From: Arbacia lixula
Lineage: Eukaryota > Echinodermata > Echinoidea > Arbacioida > Arbaciidae
Length of the DNA stretch: 64,000 nucleotides
Reading direction: 5' to 3'
NCBI GenBank assembly: GCA_963669155.1
Contig: OZ022589.1
Span: 22,431,042-22,495,041 of the forward strand
A program made the position numbers and the translations under genes. Below are positions 19,467 to 59,440 of this stretch, piece by piece; within the stretch, counting starts at the first letter, position 1, and each line of letters starts with the position of its first letter. The notes under the pieces were generated by a model. The model did not search any database. It saw only the letters and a program-made list of their open reading frames with translations, and was not told the origin of the DNA.

Positions 19467-19467
19467 C

Positions 19468-22340: not shown

Positions 22341-24475
22341 GTCATAGGTGATAGGATTTCACGGAAGGTGCAGGGTTATGAACAACAACTTGTGAATAGA
22401 TCGTATGATTGGTATCTATTCCGACTCCCTATATCACAAAATTATTCCTGATATAATTATGTTGACAAGTCCAAGCTAATTTTATGTTGAAATCACTTGT
22501 TTAGTTACGATAGATCGACATACGCTACATTCAATATAAATTGCAAGAAACGATCGATTGTTATTGCATTTTCTGTTTTGCTATCAATCCTTCGATCTAA
22601 GGTCAGCCGTTCATTTTAACTAGGTCAGGAAAAGACTGGAGACTAAACATAATGTTAATCCCAGTATGTTGCTACAGAGTTCTATATACCGTTGAACTCA
22701 TTTGTATAACCTTGGTACTAAATCCGTTTAACCCCAATGATGTACCATTCTTAATCTCGTGTTCAGTAACGGGATTTCCAAACTTGCTACAGGCAATAAA
22801 ATAAGAAGTTGCATATATGTGGTCATTTCCAATATCATATTAAAGATCAATAATGTAATTTCCACGTATGAATGTTGATTTATTTGATACATGAACGTCT
22901 GAATGTGAAGGAACATGAAGGAATATTATTAATTTTATGGAGCTGGAGAGTACAATTACCCCTTAAAAAATATCATAACAAAAACGAATTTCGATATTAT
23001 TGGTATCGATGCCTGGAGGTGTTCCGTCAACACATAAAATCGGTCTTGAAATCGATTTAGTGAAGCAGCTCCTTAAATTATATTTTAAGGTGGAATTAAT
23101 TTCGTCAACTTAAATCGTTCCTACTGTCGATTTCGATTTTAATTCATGGAACCCCCCGCCCCCCCCCCCCTGTACCAATTTATATCCGACTTGTCAACTT
23201 TCCATGAAGGCACGGTTTTATCAGTAAGGATGGTGCCCTCGCTTGTAAGCATGCTATAAACGATACTGCACGGTTTACGACTTCTTTAATGTTATTAACT
23301 TTGAAGAAACTTAACGACAGAGTAGCCCTTTTGCATAAGTCATAAAACTCGGAATAAATCAACAGAAAACCCTTCCAATGACGTGTATGAAATCTCACAC
23401 CCAGAGCTTCGCGTACCATTTCAGGAAAAGAAAGAACTTTCTCTGTTTACGCTTGAAACGTAGTTACATGGTCTACATTTAAACACCGTATTGCAATGAT
23501 CAGTGTATTGACCAGAGGTGCGCTACTTTCCTCAACTTATCGCTGTGCTGTGCAGTTTCCAGTGCTATTGTTGTCTTTAAACAAATGATATGATATATCT
23601 GGGTCAGTCCTTTGTGAGGTTATTCTTTTCTGGCTACTACCCTCTCGTGTAACATTTTACACTGTTGTTTTTGTACCTCATCTACACATGTTTATGATTT
23701 GCATTCATCATTTTGTTGTTCAATTTAATGATATTCATATTCATATTAGTTCATACCATATCACATTTCGTGATGACGTATTTCTTATATAATATATTGT
23801 TTTCTGGACCCCCAGGAAGAACAGCTGTGTCACGTGGGCACAGCTGAGTAGGATTATCCAGCTGTGAGTACACATGCGGTATTGATTCATATTCATGTAT
23901 TGTTAATTCATATCGGAAAATTAATTCTATTGAATTCAATGAGTAGCATAACGTTTGAATTAAATTGCATTAAAATTGAAAATTGAATTGAATTATTTGT
24001 ATGTTAAAAACTCACTTCTACAGGTTTCTTAAGCATTACTATCAACAAAACTACCTATGTCACTGACCCAATTCAATTCATTTCAGTTCAATGCGGTAAA
24101 ATGTCATAAGAACAAAACAAAGTTATATATATATATATATATAGATATATAAACACCAATTAAAAAGTCCGGAGTTTTAAAGATATTGATTTACAATGAA
24201 ATATATATTTCTGTATCACTACATATGAAATGTTGCATTCACACTTTCCTCATGTTGGGAATGGTTTCCGGGAGCGGAAATATCTTTGGCCCATGAACCT
24301 AATTGATAGTGAAACCAGATGGTGTTTTCATCGTAGAGTTCGTATAGCTATACACCTAGGACCTCTTTGTCAATTCGACTTTTAACAACAAACATGGTCA
24401 TGATAGCAAAGAGCGTTGTCCTTGCCACGCACAAGCAGATAAACATTTGGACTCTGGTCGTGTTGGCCGTGAGAT

Positions 24476-24484
24476 TATATAAAA
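24476..24484 (+). promoter_or_regulatory. TATA box of left GH3 gene
   Basis: TATATAAAA lies about 55 bases before the start codon and is kept in the right copy as CATATAAAAG (48,961-48,970). The distance would give a short 5' leader of about 25-30 bases. Inferred from sequence only. Confidence 0.6.
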
Positions 24485-24534
24485 GCAATAACCCATCGAT
24501 CATTTGGCCTAGCTACACACTGACAGTAACCAAC

Positions 24535-27500
24535 ATGGCGTTGACGACCAAGCTGGTTCTTCTCTCCGCTACCTTCCTCGCCGTTTCTGCCTGTGCCTTC
24601 ACAGCAACCTGGCTCCGACTTGAACATGCAAGTAGCCAGGCATTAATGTTGGGTAAGAAAGGAATTTGAAAATACTGATTCTTTGTTTCCAACCTCTGAG
24701 TGCCAGATCAACCACTGCTAAATGTGTTTTGCTTGTATTACTTGTATAACTTTTCTTAGATGAAAATGTATATTTTCTCGCCGTTTCTGCTTCTGCCTAC
24801 ACAACAACCTGGCTCCGATTTAAAGTAGCCAGGCATTGGAATTGATACATTTATTAATGTCCCCATCCCTCTTCTTTGCATATTATTTCAACTCGAAAAT
24901 TTTACATTTTGTGTACAAAGATTATCCATGAGTCTTACGCACACGGAGAGTACAAGGAGAAATAAAGATAACATAATATCTATATTCATATCTCATATTA
25001 TAGGAGTGATAGGGGTGCTGTCACTATGCCTGGCCGGGCTCTTCCTTGCTATCCTCAGTCTCCCACTGTCTCCACATGGAGGAATCCGTGGCCTCCTTCT
25101 GCACCTATTCTTTGCCGCCAAGTCCTACCTCAAAGGTAAACTCCTGCTACGCCGTGCCAGGAGAACGTGGAAGAATCCTCGCGCATACCAAACTCAGTAT
25201 CTTCTCAGGGTATGGAAGTCTGTGTCATTTTTATCATTATAAAACCTAAATGAATATGCCTGATAGGCAAATAATGCCTTCAATCCTTAAACGCTACCGA
25301 TGCATTTTGTATAATTACGATACATTATTCCCAAAGAGCAGCTCACAAAAGGTTGATTTGTGAAACACACAGGGTTACACAGGCTCTACCAGAGTTGCCA
25401 AAAACTTGATAAAAACATGAGAGTATAAAACCAACGGATGCTTTATGAATGTGACTTTAAACGAATAGCTATATTAGCAAGCTACAGCATGTACAGCATA
25501 GTAGTATTGTTTTTATTCTTGTTTCAAAACATATCGTAAACATGGTAAATTAAACGCGTGTGATTTTACACTAGTCCTATCAGATTAGCCCAAGTCGTTA
25601 TGATTTTGATTTCTGACAGGTTCTCAGTAAGAATGCGCAGACCGATTACGGCCGTAGATTCCAGTTCAAGTACATCAAGTCAAGGGAGGAGTTCAGAAAG
25701 CACCATCCTCTGATATCTTATAAGGAGTACGAACCGTTCATCGAGCGGGTGATGGAAGGCGAGCGAAACGTGCTCACACCCGAACCAATACCAAGTTTCA
25801 TCAAGACCTCTGGGACGACTGGAAAGTCCAAGTTCATTGGTCAACTCGACAAATTTGGCCCACTCGAGGACAGTCTGGATATGACCTTCGCAGCTGTGAA
25901 GGACCTTATTCCGTCTCTGAGCATCGTCCAGAAGCACGTTCATCAATATGTCGCTCCAATCAGGTCTAAAGCCAAAAGCGGAGGTACAATCGACACTATT
26001 ATGTCTCTGGGTGACTGGGGCAAACTGTACACCTTCTCATCGCCTCCCAAGGGCTTCAGGTAACCATTGGTAGCAAAGGAGTAAATACAGTAAACACAAG
26101 TTATGTGTGAGAATTTAAATAGGCTTCATGCTTCTGTGTAGAAGTGTTTCTTCTACCATTTAGTCAACAGTATTCTGAGTTCAACAAGCCTGTTGAGATA
26201 TGGAGTTTTAGAATATCTAAAAAACACTGGAGCGAGCCATAGATGGTGGTCTACATGATCGTGAATTCAGGTTCCTTGAACCATGAACAAAGGTTGTTGC
26301 TATTAATAATACCCTTATTCAGTGATGAACATTAGCCTGTCGAACTCAACTGTCAAAAAAAGCCTAATGTGACAGAATGGATACGCGATCAGTTGGGCAA
26401 AAACCCATGCCGTTCACTCAGTTCAATCAGCGTCAGTTAGGTTCAAACTGCAATCATATGGTCCATAGCTGTCTCATCAAAGCCCTTCAGACACTCCTCT
26501 CTCAGGTCACGCGCCCTCTGCGGGTCACCCCCTTGTAGTCCCCGCAGCAGAGATGCCCTGATGTCGTCGGGCAACTCGATGCGGCTGTTGATGGTTGATT
26601 TGTACAAGCCTCCCGACTCGTAAAATGCACAATAAAGTGGAAGTTACGTTTTCAGGTGGTACAAAAAGTCTCTATTTTTTTCAAAAAAGATACCGACTTG
26701 ATCGAGACTCAACTGGCTAGTCAGAACTTTGTCTCATATATTGACGACAGTATCACACAAATGACACAATTGTGTCAGTGCTCACAGACTAAGCAATGCA
26801 TTCGTTATGTGCTTCTTGTAGAATCCATTCCTTTGAGACGTCGAACTACGTGCACCTCGTCTTTGCCCTCCGTGAGCCGAATATTGGAGTCTTCATCTCT
26901 ACGTTCATTTCGAGCATCGAAAGCCTGATGAAACAACTCCGTAAAGAGTGGGAGGACATCGTACGCGACATCGAGCAGGGGACCATCAACAGCCGCATCG
27001 AGTTGCCCGACGACATCAGGGCGTCTCTGCTGCGGGAACTACAAGGGGGTGACCCGCAGAGGGCGCGTGACCTGAGAGAGGAGTGTCTGAAGGGCTTTGA
27101 TGGGATCATGATGAGAGTGTGGCCGAAACTGGCTGTTGTTCTGTCTGTCGATAACAGTCAAATATGGTCCAAGCTTCAGCAAACCTACGCTAAAGGTCAG
27201 TGTCAGAATTACAGAAAACTCGGCGGGCGAAAATGGGTTATAGTTGTTGCACCCCCATCTCCCTCACGTACATTAACCCATGACATATCGATTATACCAT
27301 CATCACGAAAACAGATACTGAATAGTGTCGTTAAAAGACAAATGTTGTGTAGTGTACGTTGGTGTTCCGTTACGGGATTAACTATGCAGTTCTGTACTGT
27401 TGCTATATCCTAAGCGAAGGAGGAGTCGTTGACTCGAAGTGAGTTGGGTTGAAGTACATTTATTCGTTTCTCCGCTCACACACTCAATGAGATCTTTGTG

Positions 27501-30500
27501 AAAACGCTGTATCGTATCTCAGCTGTCTATCTACTGTATCTCTGACACTATATCTCTGATTCCAATCCCTCTGATAGCTATGGTGATGGACTGGTTCTTT
27601 AATACGATACACGTTAACAATTATTATTATTATTATGCAATTTCTTCGATTTATAATGACTCATTTATATTCCACAGAAACTGGACGATACTACATCAAA
27701 ATGCAAAATTTCGGTTCAAGGTCGTCTTCTAAAAAGTAGGCATTAACTTTTTTGTGCCATAGAGGCAATAGCTCATAGCGCAGCCGTTGATGTGGCAGCT
27801 AAAGGGTTAGAGTGGATGATACGATTTTGGGCGGGGAAGTGATAAATGGATTGATATTACGTATCACTACAATCACAAGATCGTTAAAATGGTCGCGTGT
27901 CGCTTATTGTATTGATATATTGCATTTGCACTTTGGTATTTCATGAACCTTAATAGCCATGTCATGTACGCGTGCGAAGTATCAGGCAATCTTAGGCAAA
28001 ATTCGAACGTCTCTCATACCTGACATGATTAATGTCTTTCCTATTTCGCGCATAAATGGCTAACAAAGCTGAAAAATAGTGGCGTATTTCTAGAGCTTCT
28101 GAAATATATTTGATTGCCCAGTTTTTCTTTAGACGCTTTTCAAATTACTTTTTCATTCTTTGAAATCACTATGGCATAGTGTTCGTTGGAATTTGTAGAG
28201 TCTATATCGCAACGTGCACAAAATCAATTTGCTTCCGGGTTTCGGAGCGTCGCATGAATATGAAACCAAAAAGTACGATCATGTAGCCGCACCGACCCGA
28301 ACGCTTTTGTACGTTAAATTGTCATTTATTGTATAGATTGTTGGTATCAGATGTGGAATATAAAGCAAATAATCAACTTTTGGTTTCAGGCAATGAGACG
28401 AACTGTCACTTCCTCGGCGATCTGAATGTATACGCTACCTTTCCCCAACTAACGCTTCGGAAAGATAGCTACATCCAGATCGCCTTGGAAGTGATAGTTC
28501 GTCTCATCACCTTCACCGACGTTGATTATTTGCTTATGCTCACAGAAGTATTGATTTCATTAACTGAACTGGACAAGAGAAATGATTCTTCTAAATGTTT
28601 GTTGTTCTCTTGTTCATCTTCGTAATTGTTTAAACACCTGAAAAGCACACGTTGAAGGCAAATCCTTTTTGGGCGGAGTCGAGCAATGGCTTTAAAGAAA
28701 GAATGTTGATTCATATCTGGCCATACCAGTATCCCTTGAACACATAACCTAACGCATTGCTCACACAGGAGTACCACTAGTGGCTGATGGGTACGGGTCA
28801 TCAGAGGCGACACTAGCGGCAATTGCGCCGTGGTTCTGGGAAGAACGTCCCGAGTATGTCTTCGTGAACACATCGTTCTTTGAATTTATCAGATCGCAAG
28901 ACGTGTAAGTATACTTTATGGTTGGTGCGTGCTTTAAAAAAATATCAATTCTTTATTTATCATATACAAACAAAATAATCACTTTTCATAAACAATGCAT
29001 TCAAGGTATCGCTAGAAAGCTGATGGCCGGTTAAGTGTGAAAACTTCAACATACGGTTCAATGTACATTCAAATGAAGCTTATGATACATATGAACGACA
29101 AAAATGACAAAAATTTGACAAAATGACAAAATTGATACATTTTGAAATACAAACAAGATCCTAACAAGCACAAAACAAGATTAAACGTACGCACATGATG
29201 AACTGCGAAGACAATCATGACAATAGACGATACATTTACCAATTAGTAAGCTTGAAATTAAACAGTTAGCATCCCTGTGAGTTTAGCTCTCAGACTACGA
29301 TGAGGAAAGACCATTAAACCATTAGAATAAATACTCGTCATCTTCATTGTCATCATCATCGTCATCATATAAAGGAGCTGAACATGGTGCCTGGGATATG
29401 TGTTGAATACTCGTTTATATCATTTACGTATTTGGATGATATTCGTATTTTTATCCTGCGTCGCATAGGAGTTGTGCATGACGATTATCTCTCATCTTCA
29501 CTCCCAGCCTTGTCATGTTTGTGGAGAAGTTTGTACTCGATGTATACGGATTACTTCCAAGCATCTTTGAGTGGAACTGGAACATTAACATTGTTAATCC
29601 TGGTAATTGTTTGAAAGTAAAGTAATTACATAATGCCGTAATGTTATTTGTTGGCCTGGTAGGAATATACACTTTGGATTTCTCGTTTTCTCGTGGGAAC
29701 AACAAACCCCATTACTGACTTCTTGAGGATTATCATTTCCGACGTATATGTCGCAGTGTATTCGTGCACTATTATTCCCAGAACTAACATGAATACCGAA
29801 GTGACGTCATCATATCAATTGTTACGCCGGCTTCTGGTTCTAAACACTCCAATAAGACTTTTAACTGGTCCGACATTATTTAGCGGACTAGTGATTGGCA
29901 CTCCCAATGAGGGTCCCCGTTATCATCATTGCTGCTCGCTCAACCCTCATAGTTTGGAAAAAGTTGTCTTAAAAACTTGCTCATATTATGACGTCACACT
30001 CAGAACAGATAGGTAAATAAATCTGCGACTAGCCATCGCCAAACGTTTAATGTATTCCGTATAATACCTACAATAAATAGTGATATCCGTGTCGCTATAT
30101 TTTTCCTGTTGATAAAATAGACACGAGAACCAACCACCCACCTACTTCCTAGATGAACTAGAGGTCGGCCAGGACTACGAAGTCGTCATCACGAATAAGA
30201 GTGGTCTGTGTCGCTACAGAATGGGTGACGTTATCCGCATTGCCGGATTCCACCACAACATGCCGACATTTCAGTTCCTGTATCGGTAAGCGCAACGTCT
30301 TGGCAACGGTGTCGAGCCAACTCGGCCAACAGGCTAATTCAGCAGTCTCAAGGTTCATATAGGGTAGGAAAAAAGTTTAAACTCGCCCGAGATTATCAGA
30401 CCGGCCCGCCACCGCGAGCACGAGTTGTCCCGGTTAATTTTCATCCAGAAGTCTGTATGTTGGGGGGGGGGGGGTGAAAATTATGCCACTTTTAATTAAA

Positions 30501-31132
30501 TGAAATTCGATCGTAAATGATAGCTACAAAGAAGTGATAAAGGTAAAGCATGAATAGTAGGCCTACAGGTGATCTACAAGTACCTCATTTGATAATGATC
30601 ATTCATACGCACGTTGTTTTTATACTTATATTATTTTTAATATCTAGACTGGGGCTGGTGCTGAATCTGCGATACGAGAAGATGAACACAGATACCTTGA
30701 GATTGGCCCTTCACTCAGCGGTCGACCGGTGGGCAGGGGTGGGATTGGTGGAGTATGCCGCTGCGGAGAGCACGCTGGTCCCAGATACATGCTCTGGTAA
30801 ATACATCCTTGAGAGATTCACCTTCCAGTTTCGTATCTGAAACAGATACATTATCATTGTAACTCCCACATTGCCTAATTGAGCACTCAACACTGCATCC
30901 CGCCTTTAACAAGCATCTTCCAAGCTGAACGACAAAGTAAGCCAGGAACGTCACCATGACTAAGGACCTGGAGCAAATAATCTTATGAGATCGAGATTTC
31001 GTCAAGTATAAACATAAACAACAGAATTTGGAATTACCTGTCTGGATGGCGTTATCGTGCAATACCTTCATTACAGTGACATTTATATTTCGCAAACAAT
31101 TAGGAGATAGTGTTTGTTTTTTTTCTAGACAA

Positions 31133-31167
<35 letters not shown>

Positions 31168-32254
31168 AGTGACGTTCCCTGGAGACGTACTTGTATGCAA
31201 CCATGATATACCACAAATCTCTTTTTCTAGCCTTCGGAATTTTGAATTAATTAACTGGCCGGCGTCATCGTGCTATACCTTCATTACAGTAACATTAATA
31301 TTTCGCAAAAACCTAGGAGACTTCAAACGAAGTTAAACATGTAAAACCAAATGTGTTTTTTTTTTCCAAACATACATCTCTCTCTCTCTAAGAGACGTTC
31401 CCCGGAGACGTACTTGTAGGCAACCATGATATGCCACAAATCTCTGTTTCTAGCCTTCTGGATCATCTCCGCTTCTTGCTGACATTCACCTCTTTCTGCA
31501 AATACATGCATCCTGAATGGACATCCAATTAATTCGTTTCCCTCCTGTACCCCTATACTCCTCTATACCTTTGCCTGCTTCTTATCTCCTCAATCAGCTC
31601 TCTCTCTCCCAGCGCTTCTTAGATCCTCTTCATTGGCTGCTCTGTCCATTCGTAGAATCCTCATAATTCTTCATGAGGAACCACATTTCACGACTCTCCA
31701 AACAATTTCTAATGTGTTTAATGTTATTGACCATGCTTTCGTTCCATTCAACAACATTCACCACGTGGTAAATATAACAACCAAGTACACGAAGTACTCG
31801 TAACCGAGTCTCCATCCTTAGCATGATGTTTCTCATGATTTTCTCCAAATTCAAAATGGCTGATTCACCCTTTGTGCGCCACACGAAGCGCTACTCTCTG
31901 GAAAGTGTGTGTATTTCTTGGGAATAAAGTCACTTGTGGCACAAAAAGAGTTTAGCTAGTGCAGCTTTCCTTTTTTTATATCTTTAGAATCCAAAAACAG
32001 ACATGATAGACGGGCTAAACTAACGATGAATAATACCGATCGTGTAGAAGGAAAGATTCTGAACAAAGCAAAGAAGAACGAGAAATGTTCCATATAGAAG
32101 ACAAGGAGGAAGTAGAGATTTCAATAAAGGTAAAGGAAAAGGAAAGAAGAGGGAAATATAGACACTCATGTGGACGTAGAGACCGAAGAGAGAGGAGTAC
32201 ATCCAAAGATCTAAAAAAGTTGTTAGTGTTATTTTTTTCATAAAAACGCACATA

Positions 32255-32291
<37 letters not shown>

Positions 32292-33533
32292 GTATATATA
32301 GATTATATGTGTGTGTATTTGGTTACAAGTCGTACCGAGAAGAGATAATACATGTTCCTACCAGTTTTATAAGTGTGATGCAATTTGAGATAATCATATT
32401 TTCCACGATGTTATTGCCCACTGATATAATGCCAATTCCAAAATGATATGTATTTGTCACTGAACTGTACATGTTCTTTGTTTATTTTTATGTAAACCAT
32501 GTTGGGTTAAATGTCAAAGCAGGGCCCCGTTGTAGAAACAGTATTTAACCACTGAAGGGGCTACCCTGGTTAATAATACTAATCAATAAAATATACATAA
32601 ATAACCTTTTGTGTTTGTGTGTATGCAGCATTCGAAGAGAGCGAGATAATGCCGTATTATCTCATCTTCATGGAACTAGAACCAGCCATTGATCAACCTG
32701 AAAACTATTACCGTATTCCTCAAGACGAGATAGCAATGGTAAGTGAGATATATTAAAGTTATTACCAACATTCTGCCACCGAATAGATTTCTATAAAGAT
32801 ACACGTAGCTCTGGGCCATGTTGCATATAGGTTTTTAATTGTGGTGAATTAACATCAATGGTAACTATTTTGGCAGCACGTGCAATAATGAGAGCTTATT
32901 AGCTATTGCCATGGTAGTTACCATTGATGGTAAGCATGGTAAGTTACAATCATTGAGAAAGTATATGCACCTGATTTGGATCAGTCGCAAATAGCAACCA
33001 TCAGTTTAGAACATATTATTTAGGACCGTTTGACTTGGGTCTGTTGTTCGTGTATGTCAAACTGACTGGATACGAAATACAGGTACTCACAAATATGCTG
33101 AGAAAAATGCAACAATGGGGAAGTAAGCGCTTCGATTTGCATGTTTTAGCACCAGCACTTTCGCCACTATCGTTTTTCTTTCTCCCTGACATCGGGTATT
33201 ACAAGCTCCGTCCAAATAATAATTTCACATGACCTGTGATTTCTTTTTTCCCTCTTGTTTTTTAACTTCTTTGTTCCGATTCTAAATCTGTTGTGTGATT
33301 CTTACCTTCCTCAGATTGACGAGGAGTTGCGACGTCTGAATAGCGACTACGACCGACTCCGCCGAGAAAACTCGATCTCTCACCCTCGCGTTCACATCGT
33401 GAAACCCGGCACGTTTGACGCACTTAAGGAGTATGTCTTGGCGCACACGAACACCAGCGGGAACCAGTACAAAATACCGCGAAAACTTCGAACGGCTGAG
33501 ACTTTGGAGCTGCTGCTGCATCGTAGCTACTAA
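24535..33533 (+). CDS. GHDC: GH3 domain-containing protein, left copy (9 exons)
   Basis: Exons: 24,535-24,652; 25,004-25,209; 25,620-26,059; 26,822-27,195; 28,769-28,904; 30,121-30,285; 30,648-30,796; 32,629-32,738; 33,315-33,533. Every intron is GT-AG and phases close to 638 residues. An N-terminal hydrophobic segment (about 4-28) and a second (41-62) suggest membrane or secretory location. The three nucleotide-binding motifs of GH3 and adenylate-forming enzymes are present: TSGTTGKSK (171-179), YGSSEA (388-393) and CRYRMGDV (455-462). In plants GH3 enzymes adenylate acyl acids such as jasmonate or auxin and couple them to amino acids; the animal substrate is unknown. The intact motifs suggest, but do not prove, activity. 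It converges on a 95% identical copy. The symbol is by family resemblance. Confidence 0.9.
24774..24840 (+). pseudogene. Decayed second copy of GH3 exon 1 (left)
   Basis: Intron 1 repeats the 3' half of exon 1 (ctcgccgtttctgc, caacctggctccga, gtagccaggcatt). It lacks the start region, has lost a few codons and has no GT donor. The right arm has the same remnant, more complete, so it predates the arm duplication. Confidence 0.8.
26475..26595 (-). pseudogene. 121 bp inverted copy of GH3 exon 4 in intron 3
   Basis: This segment is the reverse complement of 26,982-27,102 (exon 4) with 2 differences. The right arm has an uninterrupted sequence at the equivalent place (near 46,955), so it is an insertion specific to the left arm. 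It matches the left exon, not the right one, at a diagnostic base (ggtcacg versus ggttacg). Only three or four bases of homology lie at the junctions. Confidence 0.9.
28390..28625 (+). other. Exon-like open segment in left GH3 intron 4
   Basis: A good acceptor (ttggtttcag) is followed by an open frame beginning GNETNCHFLGDLNVYATF, entered in the phase left by exon 4. The stretch about 28,180-28,535 is not in the right arm, which has unrelated sequence of about 260 bases there. No donor in the right phase was clear, and skipping it gives a perfect GH3 join (YAKG to VPLVADGYGSSE). It may be an inserted fragment of another gene or a cryptic exon. Confidence 0.4.
31049..31475 (+). repeat. 213 bp tandem duplication in left intron 7
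   Basis: The unit starting gcgttatcgtgcaatacc (31,049) repeats from 31,262 and includes a (CT)n run (31,136-31,166 in unit 1, shorter in unit 2) and gagacgtacttgta. The right arm has a single copy (about 43,150-43,370), so the duplication followed arm formation. The two units have diverged noticeably. Confidence 0.8.
32256..32600 (+). repeat. (CA)n microsatellite and retroposon 3' tail, copy 2
   Basis: A 33-base CA run (32,256-32,288) and, at 32,455-32,600, the gggccccgttgta to gaaggggctaccctgg block with A-rich tail shared with 9,395-9,545. Both are kept in the right arm (42,343-42,380 and 42,035-42,180, reversed), so they were present before duplication. They lie in GH3 intron 7. Confidence 0.7.
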
Positions 33534-34075
33534 AACCAAAGATGTTTACATCACAACGATGTCTGATTCCGCCACGCATTATCTGTGGAGCCCATGGAAG
33601 AACAGTAGTAGGCCTAATCCTTTATCACCGCTGAAATGGACTATCCGCCGTATCTTGTGGAATTTTGTATTTGCTCGTTGTATATTGATTACGGAAATAG
33701 ATACAAACAAACAAACATACAAATTTGATATAGAAATTATACAATACAGAGGTACACGATTGGGTCGTGTTCACCTGGATTTTACTATACAGGCGTATAT
33801 CTCAGCTTTCGCTGATAAACTGGTAGTTTTATCATTCAGTGTTTGGTATGTAGTTAACGAAGAAAAGCGAATACACAGTGTAAAAGTTCTCTAAAAACAG
33901 TATAGTTTGGGTGCAGCTGAGCACGTTTCCATGTTAGCTATTTGAAAGGAAATAATCTTTGAGTAAAGGTTCGAACATTTTGATGCGGAACAGCGTGAAA
34001 AAACCCACTTTTCTGCTGTAACATAAAATCTCGTTTAGAGCCTGTTTAACGTATTATCACAGTAATCCTCGATTA

Positions 34076-34340: not shown

Positions 34341-34429
34341 CTATACACTGAGTACAAATTATGTAAATATTTGGCCTCAAGTGTACCTCTGTGTACAATC
34401 TAGGTTTAATAAAAAAAGTATTAGAAAGT

Positions 34430-34826: not shown

Positions 34827-34829
34827 CTA

Positions 34830-38204: not shown

Positions 38205-40140
38205 TTCTTAACCTGGCTATGTCATAAATCGTTCACTTGGTCAGATAACATTTTCTTGGCTTTCTGTCTTTTTTTATTGGAGCGTTCCTCGATCCTCTAC
38301 GTCCGTATAAGTATTAGTGCACAGAAGCGGACATTTTCCTTGCTCCATTTAGTTTTCCTGTGGAACTCAGAGTCTATGCATTGGTTGGAAAGTTCGTCCG
38401 CTTTTTTCTCTAATCTGAATGTTGGTCATTGTGTGACATTCTGAGTAAAGGGATAAAATTGTTGATATAGACCTGTTGGCGTATGTACGATCGCCATTGT
38501 TGCCGGTCTGGGTAACGGCTGATTGAGACTAAGTTATTTCATTTATTGTCAGATAGGAGCGAAGAGAAGGCAAAAAAGTACGACATTAGATCTTCAGTTT
38601 ATATTCGTTGCGAATCAAAGATACATGAGGTTTTCAGAGATGCTTGGAGTTTGTGGGAGATATACCCGAAAGTTCCTTGCGATGTTTGTCGCTTAGTGGT
38701 GAGAAATCTTAAGTAGATCTCTGTGGACAGCATTTGGACGAAGCTGAGCTTATAATTGCTTTGAGCGTGTCTCTGTATGATTTCTTCATTAACATGTAAA
38801 TTGGGATATTGCCCCAGCATTGGAAGAGAGTCAGCCACATGACAATGTTGAGAGTGGGTGTGTCCATGGGCGCTTTGATCTGGGTGGTGATGACGATATG
38901 CCAGATGGATATAGGCAGCCAGCTGATGAAGAAGGAGGCGGACACTACCAAGCAGACGTAGACCCCCTTCAGCTCGGAGGCCTGTCGGAGGCCGCGTTCC
39001 CTTACTGCTCCGTCATGATGCTCGGGGTTTGTTGGAGCCCGAACCCTCCTCTGAGCGGCGATTTTTAGAGCTTGTCGCCTGGCGATGCCGGCGATTCTGC
39101 CTTGCAGGACTATAATCAAAATCACAAGCACGATAATGACAATGGAACCCGGGAACATAGCAGTGACGATGCGGTGTGTCGAGTTAAAGTTCACATAGCA
39201 CATTCCAAGCAGCGGGTAGAATCTCACAAACGAATTCTGTGTGAATGTGCCATTTATTGCAACGACTATGGACAAGATAATGATGCAGGTTATGGTCAGT
39301 ACAAGACAAGCAGTGAAGACTCGAGATTTTGTGATCCACAACGTGTACCGGAAAGGACACATCACTGCAATAAAACAGTCCAAAGTGAGATAAAAGATGA
39401 AGCATATTGACAGCGAAATATTTACAGAGAACATAAGAAAGGACGTCAAGCAAGCGACACTTCCGAATGGCCATGACCTTAAGATGACAGCTGGAATACA
39501 TGGTATCAAGGCAAAGCCAGTACCAATATCTACATTGGATAGGAATATAAAGATAATCTTGCGAGATTCACTGACACTCGTCAGTCTCCGCAGTACCAGA
39601 AGATTCAGTGAGTTTCCAATCAGGCTGAACAAGCAGTAGAGGAGAAGGACAGTTGCGTGAATGTATCGGAGAGTAGGATAATCCGCGGCTTGTTCCGTGT
39701 CATTGGCAGCCATTGTGCATCCTAGTAATTCTTTCTCTTCAACGCGCCCGAATCATCCTCGCTGAGAAGTGCATGTCTTCTGCACAACCACGGCATTTAA
39801 TACCAAAGCTGCATGTAAAAAATATCTTCTCCTCCAAGTCTCGTCATGCATCGCACTGAATAAAGCATCCCCTTTCTCGAAACCTGATTGGTTGATTGAT
39901 GAGGGCGTGTAACGGCTCTCCTCATATCGAACGTTGTGTGCCAAGGGTATTTATTTTCACCAGTAATGTACACAATTTCCATAGAGCATCGGTTTATCTG
40001 GCACACAAAAAAACATTGAGCATTCCAATTTGATTGTCATTGCGGTGAGCGATACCTCAAGCGACGCCCATGCTAACGTTTGCTGAGGAATACACCATTT
40101 TCGTTATGTATCCAAATGTCATTCACGTCGTTCAAACAAT
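38205..40140 (-). repeat. GPCR duplication unit, copy 2
   Basis: Reverse-complement match to 16,018-18,126, lying in the spacer between the two GH3 arms and ending about 85 bases from the inner end of the right arm. Homology includes 5' sequence containing ccagataaaccgatgctcta and the 3' flank down to the ccaggttaag junction. Confidence 0.85.
38709..39713 (-). CDS. Class A GPCR, intronless, full-length copy
   Basis: A 334-residue receptor, about 92% identical to the copy at 16,596-17,555 (about 26 differences in 319). It keeps the C-terminal tail after TLK, ending SSKCCPQRST, where the paired cysteines could be palmitoylated. The motifs are the same: GNSLN in TM1, NVD in TM2, DCF in place of DRY, SWLP in TM6, NIPIY in TM7. 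Residues 11-95, covering TM1, TM2 and the start of TM3, are identical in both copies, while differences cluster in TM3 to TM7. An in-frame TGA lies just upstream of the ATG, which fixes the start better than in the other copy. The ligand is unknown. Confidence 0.9.
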   Translation of the reverse strand: MAANDTEQAADYPTLRYIHATVLLLYCLFSLIGNSLNLLVLRRLTSVSESRKIIFIFLSNVDIGTGFALIPCIPAVILRSWPFGSVACLTSFLMFSVNISLSICFIFYLTLDCFIAVMCPFRYTLWITKSRVFTACLVLTITCIIILSIVVAINGTFTQNSFVRFYPLLGMCYVNFNSTHRIVTAMFPGSIVIIVLVILIIVLQGRIAGIARRQALKIAAQRRVRAPTNPEHHDGAVRERGLRQASELKGVYVCLVVSASFFISWLPISIWHIVITTQIKAPMDTPTLNIVMWLTLFQCWGNIPIYMLMKKSYRDTLKAIISSASSKCCPQRST

Positions 40141-41127
40141 TCGTTCCTAATGGTCTGAGGTTTGCCCGAGTGGCAGAACTATACTTTTTATCAAACCTTC
40201 GTAATATGTTATTTTTTCATAATGTAGATCGTACACAGAGGTACACATGAGGCCCAACGTTTACATACACCACTCATTTTGTACTCACTGTACCGCTACG
40301 GCCGCCGTGAGAGCGCCTTGCGGCGTCCTTGCGTCGGCCGTAGTTTTTGTCAAAAAAACCTACGACCGCCGCAGGGTCGCGGTACGGTGACCGTACGTCA
40401 TCATGTCAAGAACATACGGAAGCCGCAGATTTTCTTGCTCCATAAATTCAAAAATACGCCGTGCGGCGACCGTAGCATATGTGACTGCTACAATAAGTGG
40501 CAGTGGAAATTCTGCGGCGACAGTGGACACATGGTGGAATTGCTGCTCGCCATAGCAATTTTAGAATCTACGGCGGCCGTAGCAAATGTGACTGAGGCAT
40601 AAACGAGGATTATTGTTATAATAAGTTAAACAGGATCTAAACGATATTTTATGTTGCAGCAGAAAATGTGTTTTTCACGCTGTTTCGCATCAAAAAGTTC
40701 GAACCTATACTCAAAGATTAGTATTTCCTTTTAAATAGCTAACATGTGAAACGTGCCCACCTGCACCCAAACTATACTTTTCTTTTGGAGAACTTTAACA
40801 TTGCGTATTCACTTGTCTTCATTTACTACGTGCCAAACACTAAATGATAAAACTAGTTCATCAGTGAAATATATGCCTGTTTAGTAAAATCCAGGTGAAC
40901 ACGTCACAATCGTGTAGGCCTATGTATTGTATAATCAATATCAACTTTGTTTGTTTGTATTCATTTCCGTAATCAATATACAACGATCAAATACAAAATT
41001 CCACAAGATACGGCGGATAGTCCATTTCAGCGGTGATAAAAGATTAGGTCTACTACTGTTCTTCCATGTGCTCCGTAGATAATGCGTGGTGGAATCAGAC
41101 ATCGTTGTGATGTAAACATCTTTGGTT

Positions 41128-42339
41128 TTAGTAGCTACGATGCAGCAGCAGCTCCAAAGTCTCAGCCGTTCGAAGTTTTCGCGGTATTTTGTACTGGTTC
41201 CCGCTGGTGTTCGTGTGCGCCAAGACATAGTCCTTAAGTGCATCAAACGTGCCGGGTTTCACGATGTGAACGCGAGGGTGAGAGATCGCGTTTTCCCGGC
41301 GGAGTCGGTCGTAGTCGCTATTCAGACGTCGCAACTCCTCGTCAATCTAAGGAAGGTAAGAATCACACAACAGACTAAGAATTGGAACAAAGAAGTTTAA
41401 AAAAAAAGAGGGAAAAAAGAAATCACAAGTCATGTTCAATTATTATTTGGACCGAGCTTGTAATACCTGAAGTGTGGGAGAAAGAAAAACGATAGTGGCG
41501 AAAGTGATGGTGCTAAAACATGCAAATCGGAGCGCTTACTTCCTCAATGTTGCATTTTTCTCAGCATATTTGCGAGTATTTCGTATCCAGTCAGTTTGAC
41601 ACACACGACCAACAGACTCAAGTCAAACGGTCCTAAATAATATATTCTTAAACTGATGGTTGCTATTTGCGACTGATCCAAATCAGGTGCATATACCTTC
41701 TCAATGATTGTAACTTACCATCAATGGTAACTACCACGGCAACATCCAATAAGCTCTCATTATTGCACGTGCTGCCAAAATAGTTACCATTGATGTTAAG
41801 TTACCACAATTAAAAACCTATATGCAACATGGCCCAGAGCTATGTGTATCTTTGTATTCGGTGGCAGAATGTTGGTAATAACTTCAATATATCTCACTCA
41901 CCATTGCTATCTCGTCTTGAGGAATACGGTAATAATTTTCAGGTTGATCACTGTCTGGTTCTAGTTCCATGAAGATGAGATAATACGGCATTATCTCGCT
42001 CTCTTCGAATGCTGCATACACACAAACACAAAAGGCTATTTATGTATATTTTATTGATTCGTATTATTAACCAGGGTAGCCCCTTCAGTGGTTAAACACT
42101 GTTTCTACAACGGGGCCCTGTTTTGACATTTAACCCAACATGGTTAAAATAAAAATAAATAACATGTACAGTTCAGTGACAAATACATATCATTTTGGAA
42201 TTGGCATTATATCAGTGGGCAATAACATCGTGGAAAATATGATTATCTCAAATTGCATTACTTATAAAACTGGTAGGCACATGTATTATCTCTTCTCGGT
42301 ACGACTTGTAACCAAAACACACACATATAATCTATATAC

Positions 42340-42382
<43 letters not shown>

Positions 42383-43233
42383 TGTGCGTTTTTATAAAAA
42401 AAAAATAACGCTAACATTTTTTTTACATCTTTGGATGTACTCCTCTCTCTTCAATCTCTACGTCCACATTAGCGTCTATATTTTCCCTCTTCTTCCCATT
42501 CATAGCTCTACTTCCTCCTTGTCTTCTAAATGGAACATTTCTCGTTCTTCTTTGCTTTGTTCCGAATCTTTCCTTCTACACGATCGTTCTCATTCATCGT
42601 TAGTTTAGCCCGGCTATCTATCTGTGTATCATGTCTATTTTTGGATTCTAAAGATATAAAAAAGGAAAGCTGCACTAGCTAAACTCTTTTTGTGCCACAG
42701 GTGACTTTATTCCCAAGAAATACACACACGTTCCAGACAGTAGCGGTTCGTGTGGCACATAAAGGGTTAACCAGCCATTTTTAATTTGGAGAAAATCATG
42801 AGAAACATCATGCTAAGGATGGAGACTCGGTTACGAGCACGTGATTGTTATATCTACCACGTGTTATGTTGTTGAATGGAACGGAAGCATGGTCAATAAC
42901 ATTAAACACATTAGAAATTGTTTGGAGAGTCGTGAAATGTGGTTCCTTATGAAGAATGATGAGGATTGTACGGATGGACAGAGGAGCCAATGAAGAGGAT
43001 CTAAGAAGCGCTGGGAGAGAGAGAGGTGATTGAGGAGATAACAAGCAAGCAAAGGTATAGAGGAGTATAGGGGTACAGGAGGGAAACAAATTAATTGGAT
43101 GGCTATTCTGAATGGATGGATTTGCAGAAAGAAGTGAATGTCAGTGAGAAGCGGATCTGACCCAGAAGGCTAGAAAAAGAGATTTGTGGCATATCATGCT
43201 TGCTTACAAGTACGTCTCTGTGGAACGTCACTT

Positions 43234-43265
<32 letters not shown>

Positions 43266-46200
43266 TTGTCTAGAAAAAAACCCCACGCTTTTGGGTTTAC
43301 ATGTTTAACTTTGTTATCTCCTAATTGTTTGCGAAATATCAATGCCACTGTAATGAAGGTATTGCACGATAGCGCCTTTCAGACAGGTAATTCTAAATTC
43401 TGTTGTTTATGTTTATACGTGATGAAATCTCGATCTCATCAGATTATTTGCTCCAGGTCCTTTAGTAATGGTGACGTTCCTAGCTTACTTTGTCGTTCAG
43501 CTTGGAAGATGCTTGTTAAAGGTGGGATGCAGTGTTGAGTGTTCAATTAAGCCATGTGGTAGTTACAATGATAATGTATCTGTTTGGTTACAACTAAGAG
43601 TTTTCAGATACTGGAAGGTGAATCTCTCAAGGATGTATTTACCAGAGCATGTTTCTGGGACCAGCGTGCTCTCCGCAGCGGCATACTCCACCAATCCCAC
43701 CCCTGCCCACCGGCCGACCGCTGAGTGAAGGGCCAATCTCAAGGTATCTGAGTTCATCTTCTCGTATCGCAGATTCAGTACCAGCCCCAGTCTAAATATC
43801 AAAAAGAATATAAGTATAAAAACAACGTGCGTATGGATGATCATTATCAAATGAGGTACTTATAGATCAACTGGAGGCCTATTAGTCATGCTTTACCTTT
43901 ATCAGTTGATCATTTCTCTGTAGCTATCATTTACCATCGAAGTTCATTTAATTAAAAGTGGCATAATTTTCACCCCCCCCCCCCCAACATACAGACTTTA
44001 ATATGGATGAGAATGATCCGGGACAACTCGTGCTCGCGGTGACGGGCCGGTCTGAAAATCTCGGGCGAGTTTAAACTTTTCCCTACCCTATATGAACCTT
44101 GAGACCGCTGAATTAGCCTGTTGGCTGAGTTGGCTCGACACCGTTGCCAATTCGTTGCGCTTACCGATACAGGAACTGAAATGTCGGCATGTTGTGGTGG
44201 AATCCGGCAATGCGGATAACGTCACCCATTCTGTAGCGACACAGACCACTCTCATTCGTGATGACGACTTCGTAGTCCTGGCCGACCTCTAGTTCATCTA
44301 GGAAGTAGGTGGGTGGTTGGTTCTCGTGTCTATTTTATCATCAGTAAAAATATAGCGACACACATATCACTAATCATTGCTGGTATCTTACGGAATACAT
44401 TAGACGTTTGGCGATGGCTAGTCCCAGATTTAATTACCTATCTGTTCTGAGTGTGACGTCATAATATGAGCAAGTTTTTGAGACAACTGGTTCTAAACTA
44501 TGAGGGTTGAGCGATCAGCAATGATCATAACGGGGACCCTCTTTGGGAGTGCCCATCACTCGTCCGCTAAATAATGTCGGACCAGTTAAAAGTCTTATTC
44601 GAGTGTTTATAACCAAAGCCGGCGTAACAATTGGTATGAAGACGTCACTTCGGTATTCATATTAGTTCTGGGAAGAACAGTTTACTGATCGAATAAACTG
44701 CGACATATACGTCGGAAATGATAATCCTCAAGAACTCAGTAAACGGTTTGTTGTTCCCACGAGAAAACGAGAAATCCAAAGTGTATATTCCTGCCATGCC
44801 AACAAATAACATTGCGGCATTCTGTAATTACTTTACTTTCAAACAATTACCAGGATTAAGAATGTTAATATTTCACTTCCTTTCAAAGATGTTTGGAAGT
44901 AATCTGATTTGTTAGGCTATGATATATACCAAGTATACATCGAGTACAAACTTCTACACAAACATGACAAGGCTGGGAGTGAAGGTGAGAGATAATCGTC
45001 ATGCACAACTCCTATGCGACGCAGGATATAAATACGAATATCATCCAAATACGTAAATGACATAAACGAGTATTCAACACATATCCCAGACACCATGTTT
45101 AGCTACTTTATATGATGACGATGATAATGATGACAATGATGATGATGAGTATTTATTCTCATGGTTTAATGGTCTTTCCTCATCGTAGTCTGAGAGCTAA
45201 ACTCACAGGGATGCTAACTGTTTAATTTCAAGCTTACTAATTGGTAATCGTCTATTGTCATGATTGTCTTCCCAGTTCATCAATGACGTACGTGTAGTCC
45301 TGTTTTATGTGTGTGTTTTGTGCTTGTTGGGTTATTGTTTGCATTTCAAATTGTATCAATTTTGATGTCATTTTTGTTGTTCATATGTATCATAAGCTTC
45401 ATTTGAAAGTACATTGAACCGTATGTTGAAGGTTTTCACACTTAACAGGCCATCAGCTTTCTAGCGATACCTTGAATCCATTGCTTATGAAAAGTGGTTA
45501 TTTTGTTTGTATATGCTAAATAAAGAATTTATTTTTTTTAAAAAAAAGCACGCACTAACCACGAAGTATACTTACACGTCTTGCGATCTGATAAATTCAA
45601 AGAATGATGTGTTCAGGAAGACATACTCGGGACGTTCTTCCCAGAACCAGGGCGAAATTGCCGCTAATATCGCCTCTGATGACCCGTACCCATAAGCCAC
45701 TAGTGGTACTCCTGTGTGAGCAATGCGTTAGGTTATGTGTTCAAGGGATACTGGTATGGCCAGATATGAATCAACATTCTTTCTTTAAAGACATTGCTCG
45801 ACTCCGCCCAAAAATGATGTGCCTTCAACATGTGCTTTTCAGGTGTTTAAACAATTACGAACATGATTGTACGGCAACAATTGAAGAGAACAACAAACAT
45901 TTAGAAGTCTCGTTTCTCTTGTCAAGTTCTGTTAACGAAATCAATCCTTCCGTGAGCATAAAAGATATCAGCAAGCAAATATAACCAAGTTTTTCAAGCA
46001 AAATATCTCAGCTACACACAAACGCACGCAAACACTGCCAATGCTAATACACAGCTTAAGATGTCATTTGACAATAATTGAATTCTGCAAATGCGCAAGA
46101 TATTGAAAAGTAATGAATCAGTAAACTCTGTAATACAAATATCTTAGATGTCCGAATTTTAATTATTCTATTTTACTTTTGATTTGTTATAGTGTTGCCA

Positions 46201-48907
46201 ATAACTTCCATGAAATTTGTGCCCAAAATGATTTCAAAGAATGCAAAAGTGATTTGAAAAGTCTCAAGAGACAATCGGGGCAATCAAATCTATTTCAGAA
46301 GCTCTTGAAATACGCCACTATTTCTGTAATTTTCTGTAATTCTAACACTGACCTTTAGCGTAGGTTTGCTGAAGCTTGGACCAGAGTTGACCGTTATCGA
46401 CAGAGAGAACAACAGCCAGTTTCGGCCACACTCTCATCATGATCCCATCAAAGCCCTTCAGACACTCCTCTCTCAGGTTACGCGCCCTCTGCGGGTCACC
46501 CCCTTGTAGTTCCCGCAGCAGAGACGCCCTGATGTCGTCGGGCAACTCGATGCGGCTGTTGATGGTCCCCTGCTCGATGTCGCGTACGATGTCCTCCCAC
46601 TCTTTATGGAGTTGTTTCATCAGGCTGTCGATGCTCGAAGTGAAGGTCGAGATGAAGACTCCAATATTCGGCTCACGGAGGGCAAAAACGAGTTGCACGT
46701 AGTTCGACATCTCAAAGGAATGGATTCTACAAGAAGCAGATAACGAATGCATTGATTAGTCTGTGAGCACTGACACAATTGTGTCATTTGTGTGATACTG
46801 TCGTCAACATATGAGACTAAGTTCTGACTAGCCAGTTGAGTCTCGATCAAGTCGGTATCGTTGTTGATAAAAACAAAGCCTTTTTGTACCACCTGAAAAC
46901 GTAACTTCCACTTTATTGTGCGTTTTACGAGTGGGGAGGCTTGTACAAATATGAGACAGCTATGGACCATATGATTGCAGTTTGAACCTAACTGACGCTG
47001 ATTGAACTGAGTGAACGGTATGGGTTTGTGCCCAACTGATCGTGTATCCATTCTGTCACATTAGGCTTTTTTTGACAGTTGAGTTCGACAGGCTAATGTT
47101 CAGCATTGAATAAGGGTATTATTAATAGCAACAATGTTTGTTCATGGCTCAAGGAACCTGAATTCACGATCATGTAGACTACCAGCTAATAAAACTCGGT
47201 CCAGTGTTTTTTGATATTTTAAAATTCTATATCTCAACAGGCATGACAGGCTTGTTAGATCAAAATACGGTTAATATTAAGATAATTTTTTTTACACAGA
47301 AGCATGAGGCCTGTTTAAATTCTATGACATAACTTTTGTTTACTCCTTCGTTGCCAATGGTTACCTGAAGCCCTCGGGAGGCGATGAGAAGGTGTACAGT
47401 TTGCCCCAGTCACCCAGGGACATAATGGTGTCGATTGTACCTCCGCTTTTGGCTTTAGACCTGATTGGATCGACATATTGATGAACGTGCTTCTGGATGA
47501 TGCTCAGAGATGGAATAAGGTCCTTCACAGCTGCGAAGTTCATATCCAGACTGTCCTCGAGTGGGCCAAATTTGTCGAGGTGGCCAAAGAACTTGGACTT
47601 TCCAGTCGTCCCAGAGGTCTTGATGAAACTTGGTATTGGTTCGGGTGTGAGCACGTTCCGCTCGCCTTCCATCACCCGCTCGATGAAAGGTTGGTATTCC
47701 TTGTAAGATATCAGAGGGTGGTGTTTCCTGAACTCCTCCCTCGACTTGATGTACTTGAACTGGAATCTACGGCCGTAATCGGTCTGCGCATTCTTACTCA
47801 GAACCTGTTAGAAATCAAAGGTCGCCCATGTATATATCATAACCCCTTGGGCTGGGCTGATAGGATTAGTGTAAAATCACACGCGTTTATTTTACTATAT
47901 CTTTTGGAATAAGAATCAAAACAATGCCAGTATAAACTGTACATGCTCGCTAATATTGCTCTGCGTTTAAGTTACATTCATTAAGCATCCGTTTGTTTTA
48001 TATTCTCATGGTTTGATCAAGTTTTTGGTAACTCTGGTACAGCCTGTGTATGCGAATCATTTCACAAACCAACCCTTTGTGAGCTGTTCTATGGGAATAA
48101 TGTATAGTAATTGTGCAAAATGCATCGAAAACGTTTAAGGATTTAATGCATTAATGCCTATCAGGCATATTCATTTAAGTTTTATAATGATACAAATGAC
48201 ACAGACTTCCATACCCTGAGAAGAAACTGAGTTTGGTACGCGCGAGGATTCTTCCACGTTTTCCTGACACGGCGTAGCAGGAGTTTCCCCTTGAGGTATG
48301 ACCTGGCGGCAAAGAATAGGTGCAGAAGGAGACCGCGGATTCCTCCATGTGGAGACAGTGGGAGACTGAGGATAGCAATGACGAGCCCGGCCAAGCATAG
48401 TGACAGCACCCCTATCACTCCTATAATATGAGATATGAATATAGATATTATGTTATCTTTATTTCTCCTCGTACTCTCCGTGTGCGTACGAGTCATGGAT
48501 AATCTTTTTTTCTGTAAAAAGAAAGTGTTACAATTTAGAGTTCAAATACTATGCAAGGAAGAGGGATGGGGAGATTAATAAATGTATCGATTTCAATGCC
48601 TAGCTACTTCCATGTTCAAGTCGGAGCCAAGTTGCTGCGAAGGCAGAAGCAGAAACGGCGAGAAAATATATATTTTCATCTGAGAAAAGTCATACAAGTT
48701 ATACAAACAAAATACATTCAGCAGTGGTTGATCTGGTACTCAGAGGTTGGAAACAAAGAATCGGTTTTTTTTTCAAATTCCTTTCTTACCCAACATTAAT
48801 GCCTGGCTACTTGCATGTTCAAGTCGGAGCCAGGTTGCTGTGAAGGCACAGGCAGAAACGGCGAGGAAGGTAGCGGAGAGAAGAACCAGCTTGGTCGTCA
48901 GCGCCAT
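41128..48907 (-). CDS. GHDC: GH3 domain-containing protein, right copy (9 exons)
   Basis: Exons on the minus strand: 48,907-48,790; 48,420-48,215; 47,804-47,365; 46,726-46,353; 45,711-45,576; 44,329-44,165; 43,791-43,643; 42,011-41,902; 41,346-41,128. Lengths equal those of the left copy exon by exon and sum to 638 residues, with no stop or frameshift. About 32 residues differ from the left copy. TSGTTGKSK, YGSSEA and CRYRMGDV are unchanged. Differences fall outside these motifs, for example Ala to Asp at about 530-540 and Asp to Tyr just before GYGSSE. Both copies therefore look functional and under constraint. Its 3' end faces the other gene across 7.6 kb. Substrate unknown. Confidence 0.9.
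42035..42380 (-). repeat. Retroposon 3' tail, copy 3, and (TG)n
   Basis: Right-arm counterparts of 32,256-32,600: the ccagggtagccccttcagtgg block at 42,073-42,093 and a 38-base TG run at 42,343-42,380. The TG run is slightly longer than in the left arm. Confidence 0.7.
43234..43262. repeat. (GA)n microsatellite
   Basis: A 29-base GA run in the right GH3 intron 7, counterpart of the CT run at 31,136-31,166 on the left. Confidence 0.9.
48595..48664 (-). pseudogene. Decayed second copy of GH3 exon 1 (right)
   Basis: On the minus strand, ctcgccgtttctgc, gcaacttggctccgac and gaacatggaagtagc match exon 1 (48,907-48,790) but end in an in-frame TAG where exon 1 reads CAG, and no donor follows. It is more complete than the left-arm remnant, which lost the gaacatg codons. 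Confidence 0.8.
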
Positions 48908-48960
48908 GTTGGTTACCGTCAGTGTGTAGCAATATAGGCCAAATTATCGATGGGTTATTG

Positions 48961-48970
48961 CTTTTATATG
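48961..48970 (-). promoter_or_regulatory. TATA box of right GH3 gene
   Basis: CATATAAAAG on the minus strand, about 55-60 bases before the start codon, at the same relative place as in the left copy. Confidence 0.55.
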
Positions 48971-50867
48971 ATCACGGCAAACACGAACTAGGGTCCAAAT
49001 GTATTACTGCTTGTGCGTGGCGAGGACAATGTTCTTTTCTATCATGATCATGTTTGTTATTAAAAGTCGAATTGACAATCAGGTCCTAGGGGTATAGCTA
49101 TACGAATTCTACGATGAAAACACCATCTGGTTTCACTATCAATTAGTTTCATGGGCCAAAGATATTTCCGCTCGCGGAAACCATTCCCAAGAAGAGGAAA
49201 GTGTGATTGCAACATTGTATATGTAGTGATATACAAATATATATTTCATTGTAAATCAATATCTTTCACTCTTCAGACTTTTTGATTGATATATATATAT
49301 TTAGCTTTGTCTTGTTTTTATCACATTTTACCTCGTTGAACTGAAATTGATTGCATTTGGACAATGACGTAGGCAGTTTTGTTGATAGTAACGCTCAAGT
49401 AACCTGTAGAAGCAAGTTTTTAACATACAAATAACTCAATTCAATTTTCAATTTTATTGCAATTCAGTTCAAACGTTATGCTACTCATTGAATTCAATTG
49501 AATTATTTTTCCGATATGAATCAACAATACAGAAATATGAATCAATATCGCATGTGTACTCACGGCTGGATGATCCTACTCAGCTGTGCCCACGTGACAC
49601 AGCTGTTCTTCCTGGGAGTCCAGAAAACAATATATTATATAAGAAATACGTCATCACGAAATGTGATATAGTATGAACTAATATGAATATGAATCTCATT
49701 AAATTGCACAACAAAAAGATGAATGCAAAAAAATCAACATGGATAGATGAACAACCTTATAAAGGACTGACCCAGATATATCATATCATTTGTTTAAAGA
49801 CAACAATAGCACTGGAAACTGCACAGCACAGCGATAAGTTGATTTAATTAGCGCACCACTGGTCAATACACTGATCATTGCAATATGGTATTTAAATGTA
49901 GACCATGTAGCTACGTTTCAAGCGTAAACAGAGAAAGTTCTCTCTTATCCTGAAATGGTTCGCGAAGCTATGTGTGTGAGATTTCATACACGTCATTGAA
50001 GGGTTTACTGCTGATTTATTCCGAGTTTTATGACTTTTGCAAAAGGCTTACTCTGTCGTTAAGTTTCTACAAAGTTAATAACATTAAAGAAGAAGTCGTA
50101 AACTGTGTAGTATCGTTTATAGCATGCTTACAAGCGATGGCCCCATCATTACTGATAGAACTTTGCCTCCATGGAAAGTTGACAAGTCGGGTTTAAAGGT
50201 CACCTGTCATTAAAATTTATGTCGACTTATGTTGATGCAACATAATATGTACATAACAAAGTCACTACCTGTTCAATGGAAATATGTGTCGTACATTTTA
50301 AAATATTTTTTCTTTATTTTTTTCTCAGCACTGATAAGCCCCGCCTCCAAAATATCCTTCAGCTAAACGAGTGATTACAACATAAAATTAGTTAGGATTT
50401 GTCAAAATATGTCAGGGGCAATTTTGTGATATAGGGAGTCGGAATAGATACCAATCATACGATCAATTGAAACAAGCTGTTATACATAACCGTGACCTTT
50501 GATGAAAGCCTATCATTTATGGCCAACATAAACTCCCGCGTTTTATAAAACTTTTCCCTTTGTCTCTCTATCGCTGACTCAGCCGTCAGAATTTGTCTTT
50601 GTGAGTTGTATATAAAGGTAAATGTGTCAAAAGACAGGTAACTGCGAAGGTCATGGAGGTAGCATGCACGATAGACAGGTGATATGTTATTAGATATGGG
50701 ATATAGTGAATTATACTGAAAAAGCAGTGTTCTCGTTCACGAACGCGTTCACCAAACAGGCGTCTGACTATACAGCTGGCGCTGTGCTATTTCGTGTACG
50801 GTTGAAGATTGCGTTTCTCGGCATGCGCAGTCTGGCCTGTAATGAAACCTCCCTGATGTGATTAAGG

Positions 50868-59387: not shown

Positions 59388-59440
<53 letters not shown>

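Follow-up and report, generated by a model that had tools for sequence, protein, structure and literature searches.

Two intact and constrained GH3-domain genes in a probable rearranged segmental duplication of the sea urchin Arbacia lixula

A stretch of the Arbacia lixula genome holds two nearly equal GH3-domain genes in opposite orientation, which raises the question of whether both are real genes or are two alleles of one gene placed side by side by the assembly, and of what their proteins might do. Here, the window is the whole 64,000-nucleotide stretch that we analyzed (C14:22431042-22495041, GC 40.0%; labels such as C1, C5, and C7 are the contig labels of this analysis), and the genome searched comprised 606,990,701 bp in 590 contigs. 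We consider it very probable that the locus is a real, fairly young, rearranged segmental duplication whose two GH3 copies have stayed intact under constraint and encode probable amido synthetases. As an event, it is mostly an ordinary gene duplication, to which the size of the family, a GPCR partner, and an exon-3 hairpin add somewhat.

We compared the window with itself and found two inverted arms around a spacer.

22343..34417, + strand: duplication arm A, with GH3A inside (self-BLAST, finer BLAST, global alignment)
40212..50521, - strand: arm B of the duplication, carrying GH3B (self-BLAST, finer BLAST, global alignment)
34418..40211, no strand: spacer between the arms; it holds GPCR copy 2, repeats (35786-36373 and 37187-37697), and, from 34415, an element of a repeat family (self-BLAST, finer BLAST)

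The large inverted duplication described in the earlier note was thus recovered, with arms of ∼12.1 kb (A) and ∼10.3 kb (B) and a 5.8 kb spacer. In self-BLAST and finer BLAST of the window, the matching pieces were 80.0-95.8% identical, with E = 0 for the longer ones, well past what chance would give. Global alignment of A with B showed identity over most of the length, the main breaks being inserts in A at ∼22.6-23.1, 27.2-28.1, and 31.1-31.4 kb. Two further matching blocks each carry a GPCR gene.

16007..18130, + strand: copy 1 of the GPCR block (P'), lying upstream of arm A, with a 319-aa ORF that starts at 16596 (BLAST; Pfam 7tm_1, E 1.7e-19)
38208..40150, - strand: copy 2 of the GPCR block (P), within the spacer and adjoining arm B; ORF 39713 to 38709, 334 aa (BLAST; Pfam 7tm_1, E 2.8e-19)

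The order of blocks on the + strand is GPCR'(+) GH3A(+) GPCR(-) GH3B(-). A simple palindrome was rejected, as the BLAST matches put one GPCR copy beyond arm A and its counterpart beside arm B, in a permuted order. The arrangement reads instead as a permuted duplication, in which every block is inverted while the order of the blocks is kept. Noncoding DNA diverged alike in the arms (7.95% of 7,467 bases) and in the GPCR block (7.2% of 964 bases), which fits one event. Along the arms, divergence was uneven (6.7% at 28541-33590 versus 9.2% at 23179-27218; chi-square p = 1.8e-4), and the closer stretch makes a later exchange between the copies possible.

Some block ends coincide with copies of local repeat families. 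In the self-comparison of the window, one repeat starts at 34415, at the end of arm A, and another at 18126, at the end of GPCR', while the sequence at the GPCR end, near 40150, is similar to repeats around 0.9 and 1.9 kb of the window. The outer arm ends at 22343 and 50521 overlapped none of the repeats among those listed. Copies of the family that begins at the arm A boundary lie at 34415-34825, 37187-37697, 57849-58287, and 60590-61050. Two routes could each give the observed block order: inversion and deletion within a tandem array, or passage through a circular intermediate.

We then modeled the two GH3 genes.

24928..33533, + strand: GH3A, eight coding exons (24928-25209, 25620-26059, 26822-27195, 28769-28904, 30121-30285, 30648-30796, 32629-32738, 33315-33533), 624 aa (splice sites and open frame; Pfam)
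41128..48496, - strand: GH3B, eight coding exons (48496-48215, 47804-47365, 46726-46353, 45711-45576, 44329-44165, 43791-43643, 42011-41902, 41346-41128), 624 aa (alignment to GH3A)

The genes are convergent, with GH3A on the + strand and GH3B on the - strand, and both models are complete, with equal exon lengths and AG/GT at all internal boundaries, in agreement with the two intact genes first described. The details of that description changed: it gave nine exons, 638 residues, and ∼32 differences, whereas we obtained eight coding exons and 624 residues, and the copies differ at 68 of 1,875 nucleotides and 35 of 624 residues (proteins 94% identical). A ninth exon was not found from splice sites and open frame; a 5' exon upstream of the modeled start codon is possible. 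We scanned GH3A against the Pfam GH3 set (PF03321, PF23571, and PF23572), with GH3B represented by its 94% identity, and observed GH3 (PF03321; E 3.1e-61, 207.7 bits), GH3_M (E 6.8e-24, 84.2 bits), and GH3_C (E 8.6e-19, 68.8 bits), each above its cut-off of 23.6. The three nucleotide-binding motifs, defined as in PMC12493201, are kept in both copies as KTSGTTGKSK, YGSSE, and GLCRYRMGD, again as originally claimed. Motif 1, the YGSSE core, and motif 3 are free of the 35 residue changes, although D372Y, T380I, and K437E each lie two residues away from a motif. The GH3 protein also has a hydrophobic stretch near residues 24-45 (19-residue mean), and beyond it no further stretch along the chain exceeded 1.6 by the same measure.

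To what extent are both copies under constraint? Between GH3A and GH3B, dS was 0.081 and omega was 0.34 (likelihood-ratio test, p = 3.1e-5). By segment, omega was significantly low in exons 2-3 (0.23, p = 7e-5) and not significantly so in exon 1 (0.45, p = 0.12) or exons 4-8 (0.56, p = 0.25). We counted 73 gap events across the noncoding alignment (7,467 bases) versus none in the 1,875 bp coding sequence, where 18.3 would be expected without constraint on either copy and 9.2 with constraint on one, numbers that are somewhat high as the noncoding rate includes simple repeats. These observations support the conclusion that GH3A and GH3B are both intact and constrained. The earlier note had proposed selection for two copies, through dosage or divergent substrates; the constraint (omega, absence of coding indels) speaks for the first part, while dosage or divergent substrates gain no support from the residue changes, none of which lies inside a motif. 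It had also put forward dN/dS well below 1 as a check on two functional genes, and the ratio did come out below 1; however, the same is expected between alleles, so constraint cannot tell paralogues from alleles. This is a caution for heterozygous genomes generally, in which dN/dS alone does not distinguish the two.

Sea urchins are highly heterozygous, and the two arms might be two haplotypes of one locus that were wrongly joined, a concern already raised in the earlier note and a reading that we regard as distinctly unlikely. The noncoding substitution divergence is about twice the heterozygosity of 3.47-4.40% published for A. lixula (PMC11310861), although local allelic divergence can exceed the mean. 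Copy number fits both a duplication and a misjoin, as two copies in all were found genome-wide among the best candidates scored: arm A probes of 2,551 and 2,701 bp gave long matches at A and B alone, the others being short repeats (40 best candidates scored), and two arm probes together with two protein probes found no third copy or haplotig elsewhere among the best candidates scored. A right-flank probe, on the other hand, gave a long match to itself alone, apart from repeats, and a single-copy flank argues against joined haplotypes. So does the order of the blocks, since misjoining would give an inverted and permuted order only through two or more separate errors without gaps, and there are no Ns in the window or in the 10 kb on either side. 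A missed-adapter PacBio read gives identical arms, not 8%-divergent ones.

Echinoderm assemblies are known to retain alleles as false duplicates, and the nomenclature guidelines for echinoderms warn of such "pseudoduplicates", defined by ≥90% identity over ≥90% of the longer gene, its introns and 1-kb flanks included (PMC8361234). Set against this definition, the arm pieces span 80.0-95.8% identity, which is a value for pieces and not for the whole gene, and arm A carries an insert of more than 0.8 kb. Two other GH3 pairs have a comparable dS, which could also reflect retained haplotypes. The published A. lixula assembly, on the other side, was haplotig-purged: it was made from HiFi reads with hifiasm, purge_dups, and Omni-C, and is described as 607.91 Mb with 22 chromosome-scale scaffolds, the longest of 55.6 Mb, and a GC content of 39.33% (PMC11310861). 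Its published count of 22 plus 676 scaffolds (PMC11310861) compares with the 590 contigs of the assembly that we searched. This assembly contains a bindin gene (profile match at E 2.2e-65; 0 of 14 controls matched), and two primers developed from an EST of Patiria miniata (PMC3314618) each had 0 exact hits in it, which taken alone is weak evidence on the species.

The duplication could also be real and yet segregate as a copy-number variant, its copies kept by chance and not by selection. This account overlaps with the one we prefer, and we judge it to be unlikely. A divergence just about twice the mean allelic divergence (PMC11310861) is compatible with it; the finding of no coding indels where 9.2 are expected with one constrained copy (P = 1e-4) and the omega of 0.34 are harder to reconcile with chance retention. 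The residue changes are also even between the copies: when polarized on paralogues, with many calls made from few of them, the 35 differences comprised 13 that are ancestral in A, 14 that are ancestral in B, and 8 that are ambiguous. We therefore return to a real duplication with two constrained copies. In the order of events that we infer, one segmental duplication would have copied the GH3 gene together with its GPCR neighbor, and GH3A would, probably afterward, have gained in intron 2 a reversed piece of the exon 3 that it carries itself.

Both GPCR copies scored above the 7tm_1 (PF00001) cut-off of 30.5 (70.8 bits for copy 1 and 70 bits for copy 2), as rhodopsin-family GPCRs. Copy 2 is a gene in one open frame. 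The tail of copy 1 is 15 residues shorter through a 4-bp deletion at 17540-17560, and with it the CC pair of the copy 2 C-terminal tail is absent. The GPCR pair is likewise constrained (omega 0.38, p = 9e-4, 318 codons). With 120 of 282 candidates scored, two close copies were found genome-wide, at 100% and 92%, the next being at 34%, and none of the close copies lay outside the window. Judged by its similar divergence, the GPCR gene was probably duplicated together with GH3, a point that goes beyond the earlier note, as do the permuted block order, the GH3 family of 18 or more loci, and the exon-3 hairpin.

The exon-3 fragment sets GH3A apart from GH3B.

26475..26595, - strand: 121-bp inverted copy of GH3A exon 3, within GH3A intron 2 (self-BLAST, 98.3% to 27102-26982; alignment)
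26460..27118, + strand: predicted pre-mRNA hairpin of 130 base pairs, intron 2/exon 3 of GH3A (folding; stem from 26460/27118 to 26595/26982)

Folding of this hairpin gave a z of -17.8, and none of 20 shuffles folded as well. The antisense copy is absent from GH3B, where the A/B alignment shows an uninterrupted site. At the single site in the copied stretch where exon 3 differs between A and B, the inverted copy matches A, and its other two mismatches to exon 3 are private to it. Agreement with A at this site suggests that the insertion came after the duplication, so the antisense copy is probably the younger of the two, on the thin evidence of one site. GH3A and GH3B may differ in RNA processing through the hairpin. 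It is conceivable, though very doubtful, that GH3A acts as a self-limiting regulator, its hairpin giving rise to small RNAs (or being edited, or mis-spliced) and acting on both genes; small RNAs from the hairpin would reach both, since the two genes have almost identical exon 3 sequences. More speculative still is the idea, prompted by neighborhood alone, that GH3 and the co-duplicated orphan GPCR might form a synthase/receptor pair for an N-acyl amino acid-like signal. The window also shows clearly how a recent inverted exon copy can set apart two otherwise near-equal genes.

The rest of the window has features of its own. Four copies of a 199-bp tandem unit (18666-19459) are followed by a 986-bp self-inverted repeat (19466-20451), with related pieces at 21410-22253 and immediately beyond the left end of the window; the array at 18666-20451 looks like a foldback-type mobile element. 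An ORF at 3153-3632 (- strand) had no Pfam match and contains a GDINPNPGP stretch, which we take to resemble the 2A recoding motif of sea urchin non-LTR retrotransposons. An ORF at 6387-7004 (- strand) matches inositol polyphosphate kinase (IPK, E 4e-27), and exons coding for a fibrinogen-related protein lie at 58306-60025 (Fibrinogen_C, E 3.8e-11 and 2.5e-27).

How the pair sits within its family was followed genome-wide. We found at least 18 GH3 loci, grouped from 23 matched stretches, with an exon-by-exon search also run; this is a count of loci, 16 of them outside the window, and not of working genes. The locus at C7:3.07 Mb looks fragmentary, with internal stops, and was omitted from the tree for having too few aligned residues. 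The tree comprised 17 of the 18 urchin loci, one plant sequence, and 12 of 80 bacterial sequences, and is unrooted with local supports. The urchin loci grouped together (0.955) as a clade separate from, and next to, the one plant sequence used (0.995), and none fell among the 12 bacterial sequences. A first bacterial scan confirmed 0 of 7 stretches; a second gave 113 relatives from 363 stretches, of which 80 were kept, as an uneven sample in which the scan patterns favor certain bacteria. GH3A and GH3B formed their own branch, and over aligned residues their identity was 47-51% to two C5 loci at 24.3 Mb and 47-48% to the fragmentary C7 locus. Measured on the first large exon only, dS was 0.060 for the C14 13.42/13.44 Mb pair, 0.109 for the C8 1.11/1.12 Mb pair, and 0.337 for the older C5 pair; dS was thus ≤0.11 in three of the four GH3 pairs compared, A/B among them. 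The region that corresponds to GH3A exons 1-3 aligns without a break at 13 of the other 16 GH3 loci. GH3A and GH3B introns split this region after residues 94 and ∼241, and the locus at C14:17.295 Mb also breaks near 241. An echinoid with 18 or more loci and a number of young pairs provides a natural series for the study of animal GH3 function.

What might these proteins do? By analogy with the family, the most likely function of each GH3 protein is that of an ATP-dependent acyl-acid amido synthetase anchored to a membrane. As in plant GH3 and bacterial OlsH, an acid would be adenylated at the three-motif nucleotide site, and an amino acid or other amine would then attack the adenylated acid to give an amide. 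The hydrophobic segment near the N terminus would hold the enzyme on a membrane, and such anchoring makes a lipid-like acyl acid a plausible substrate. A word-match search of literature listings found no substrate or enzymatic activity for any animal GH3 protein, a result that would also agree with GH3-fold proteins that have lost amido synthetase activity, for example as scaffold or lipid-binding membrane proteins. We find this unlikely, given that both copies retain all three nucleotide motifs together with many residues found in a plant GH3.

A PDB search with GH3A (E ≤ 0.001) returned 10 sequences, all named plant-type GH3 (E 6.4e-50 to 7.6e-44). The plant amido synthetases GH3-1 (4b2g), GH3.5 (5kod), GH3.8 (7dk8), GH3.12 (4epm), and JAR1 (4epl) have the same three Pfam domains, and plant GH3-1 has the motifs in common with urchin GH3 at 31% identity. 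In contrast to the plant chains, the urchin protein has an unaligned N-terminal extension with the hydrophobic stretch, the alignments starting at residue 71-83. OlsH, a bacterial GH3-like lyso-ornithine lipid synthetase, is described as making an amide from fatty acid and ornithine in an ATP-dependent manner (PMC12493201). GH3A matched the OlsH profile (NF052613) partially, with E 1.6e-18 and 66.5 bits against a cut-off of 620; it is GH3-like as OlsH is, but not a member, and the likeness serves as analogy and not as assignment. Vertebrate GH3, presumably the protein named GHDC, is an animal GH3 like GH3A, and the match of GH3A to GH3_N_vert was weak, at 24.2 bits (E 3.4e-5) and below the cut-off of 34.1. 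Within the same genome, the young tandem GH3 pairs at C8:1.11/1.12 Mb and C14:13.42/13.44 Mb resemble A/B in their dS (0.109 and 0.060, respectively) but, unlike A/B, lie in direct orientation.
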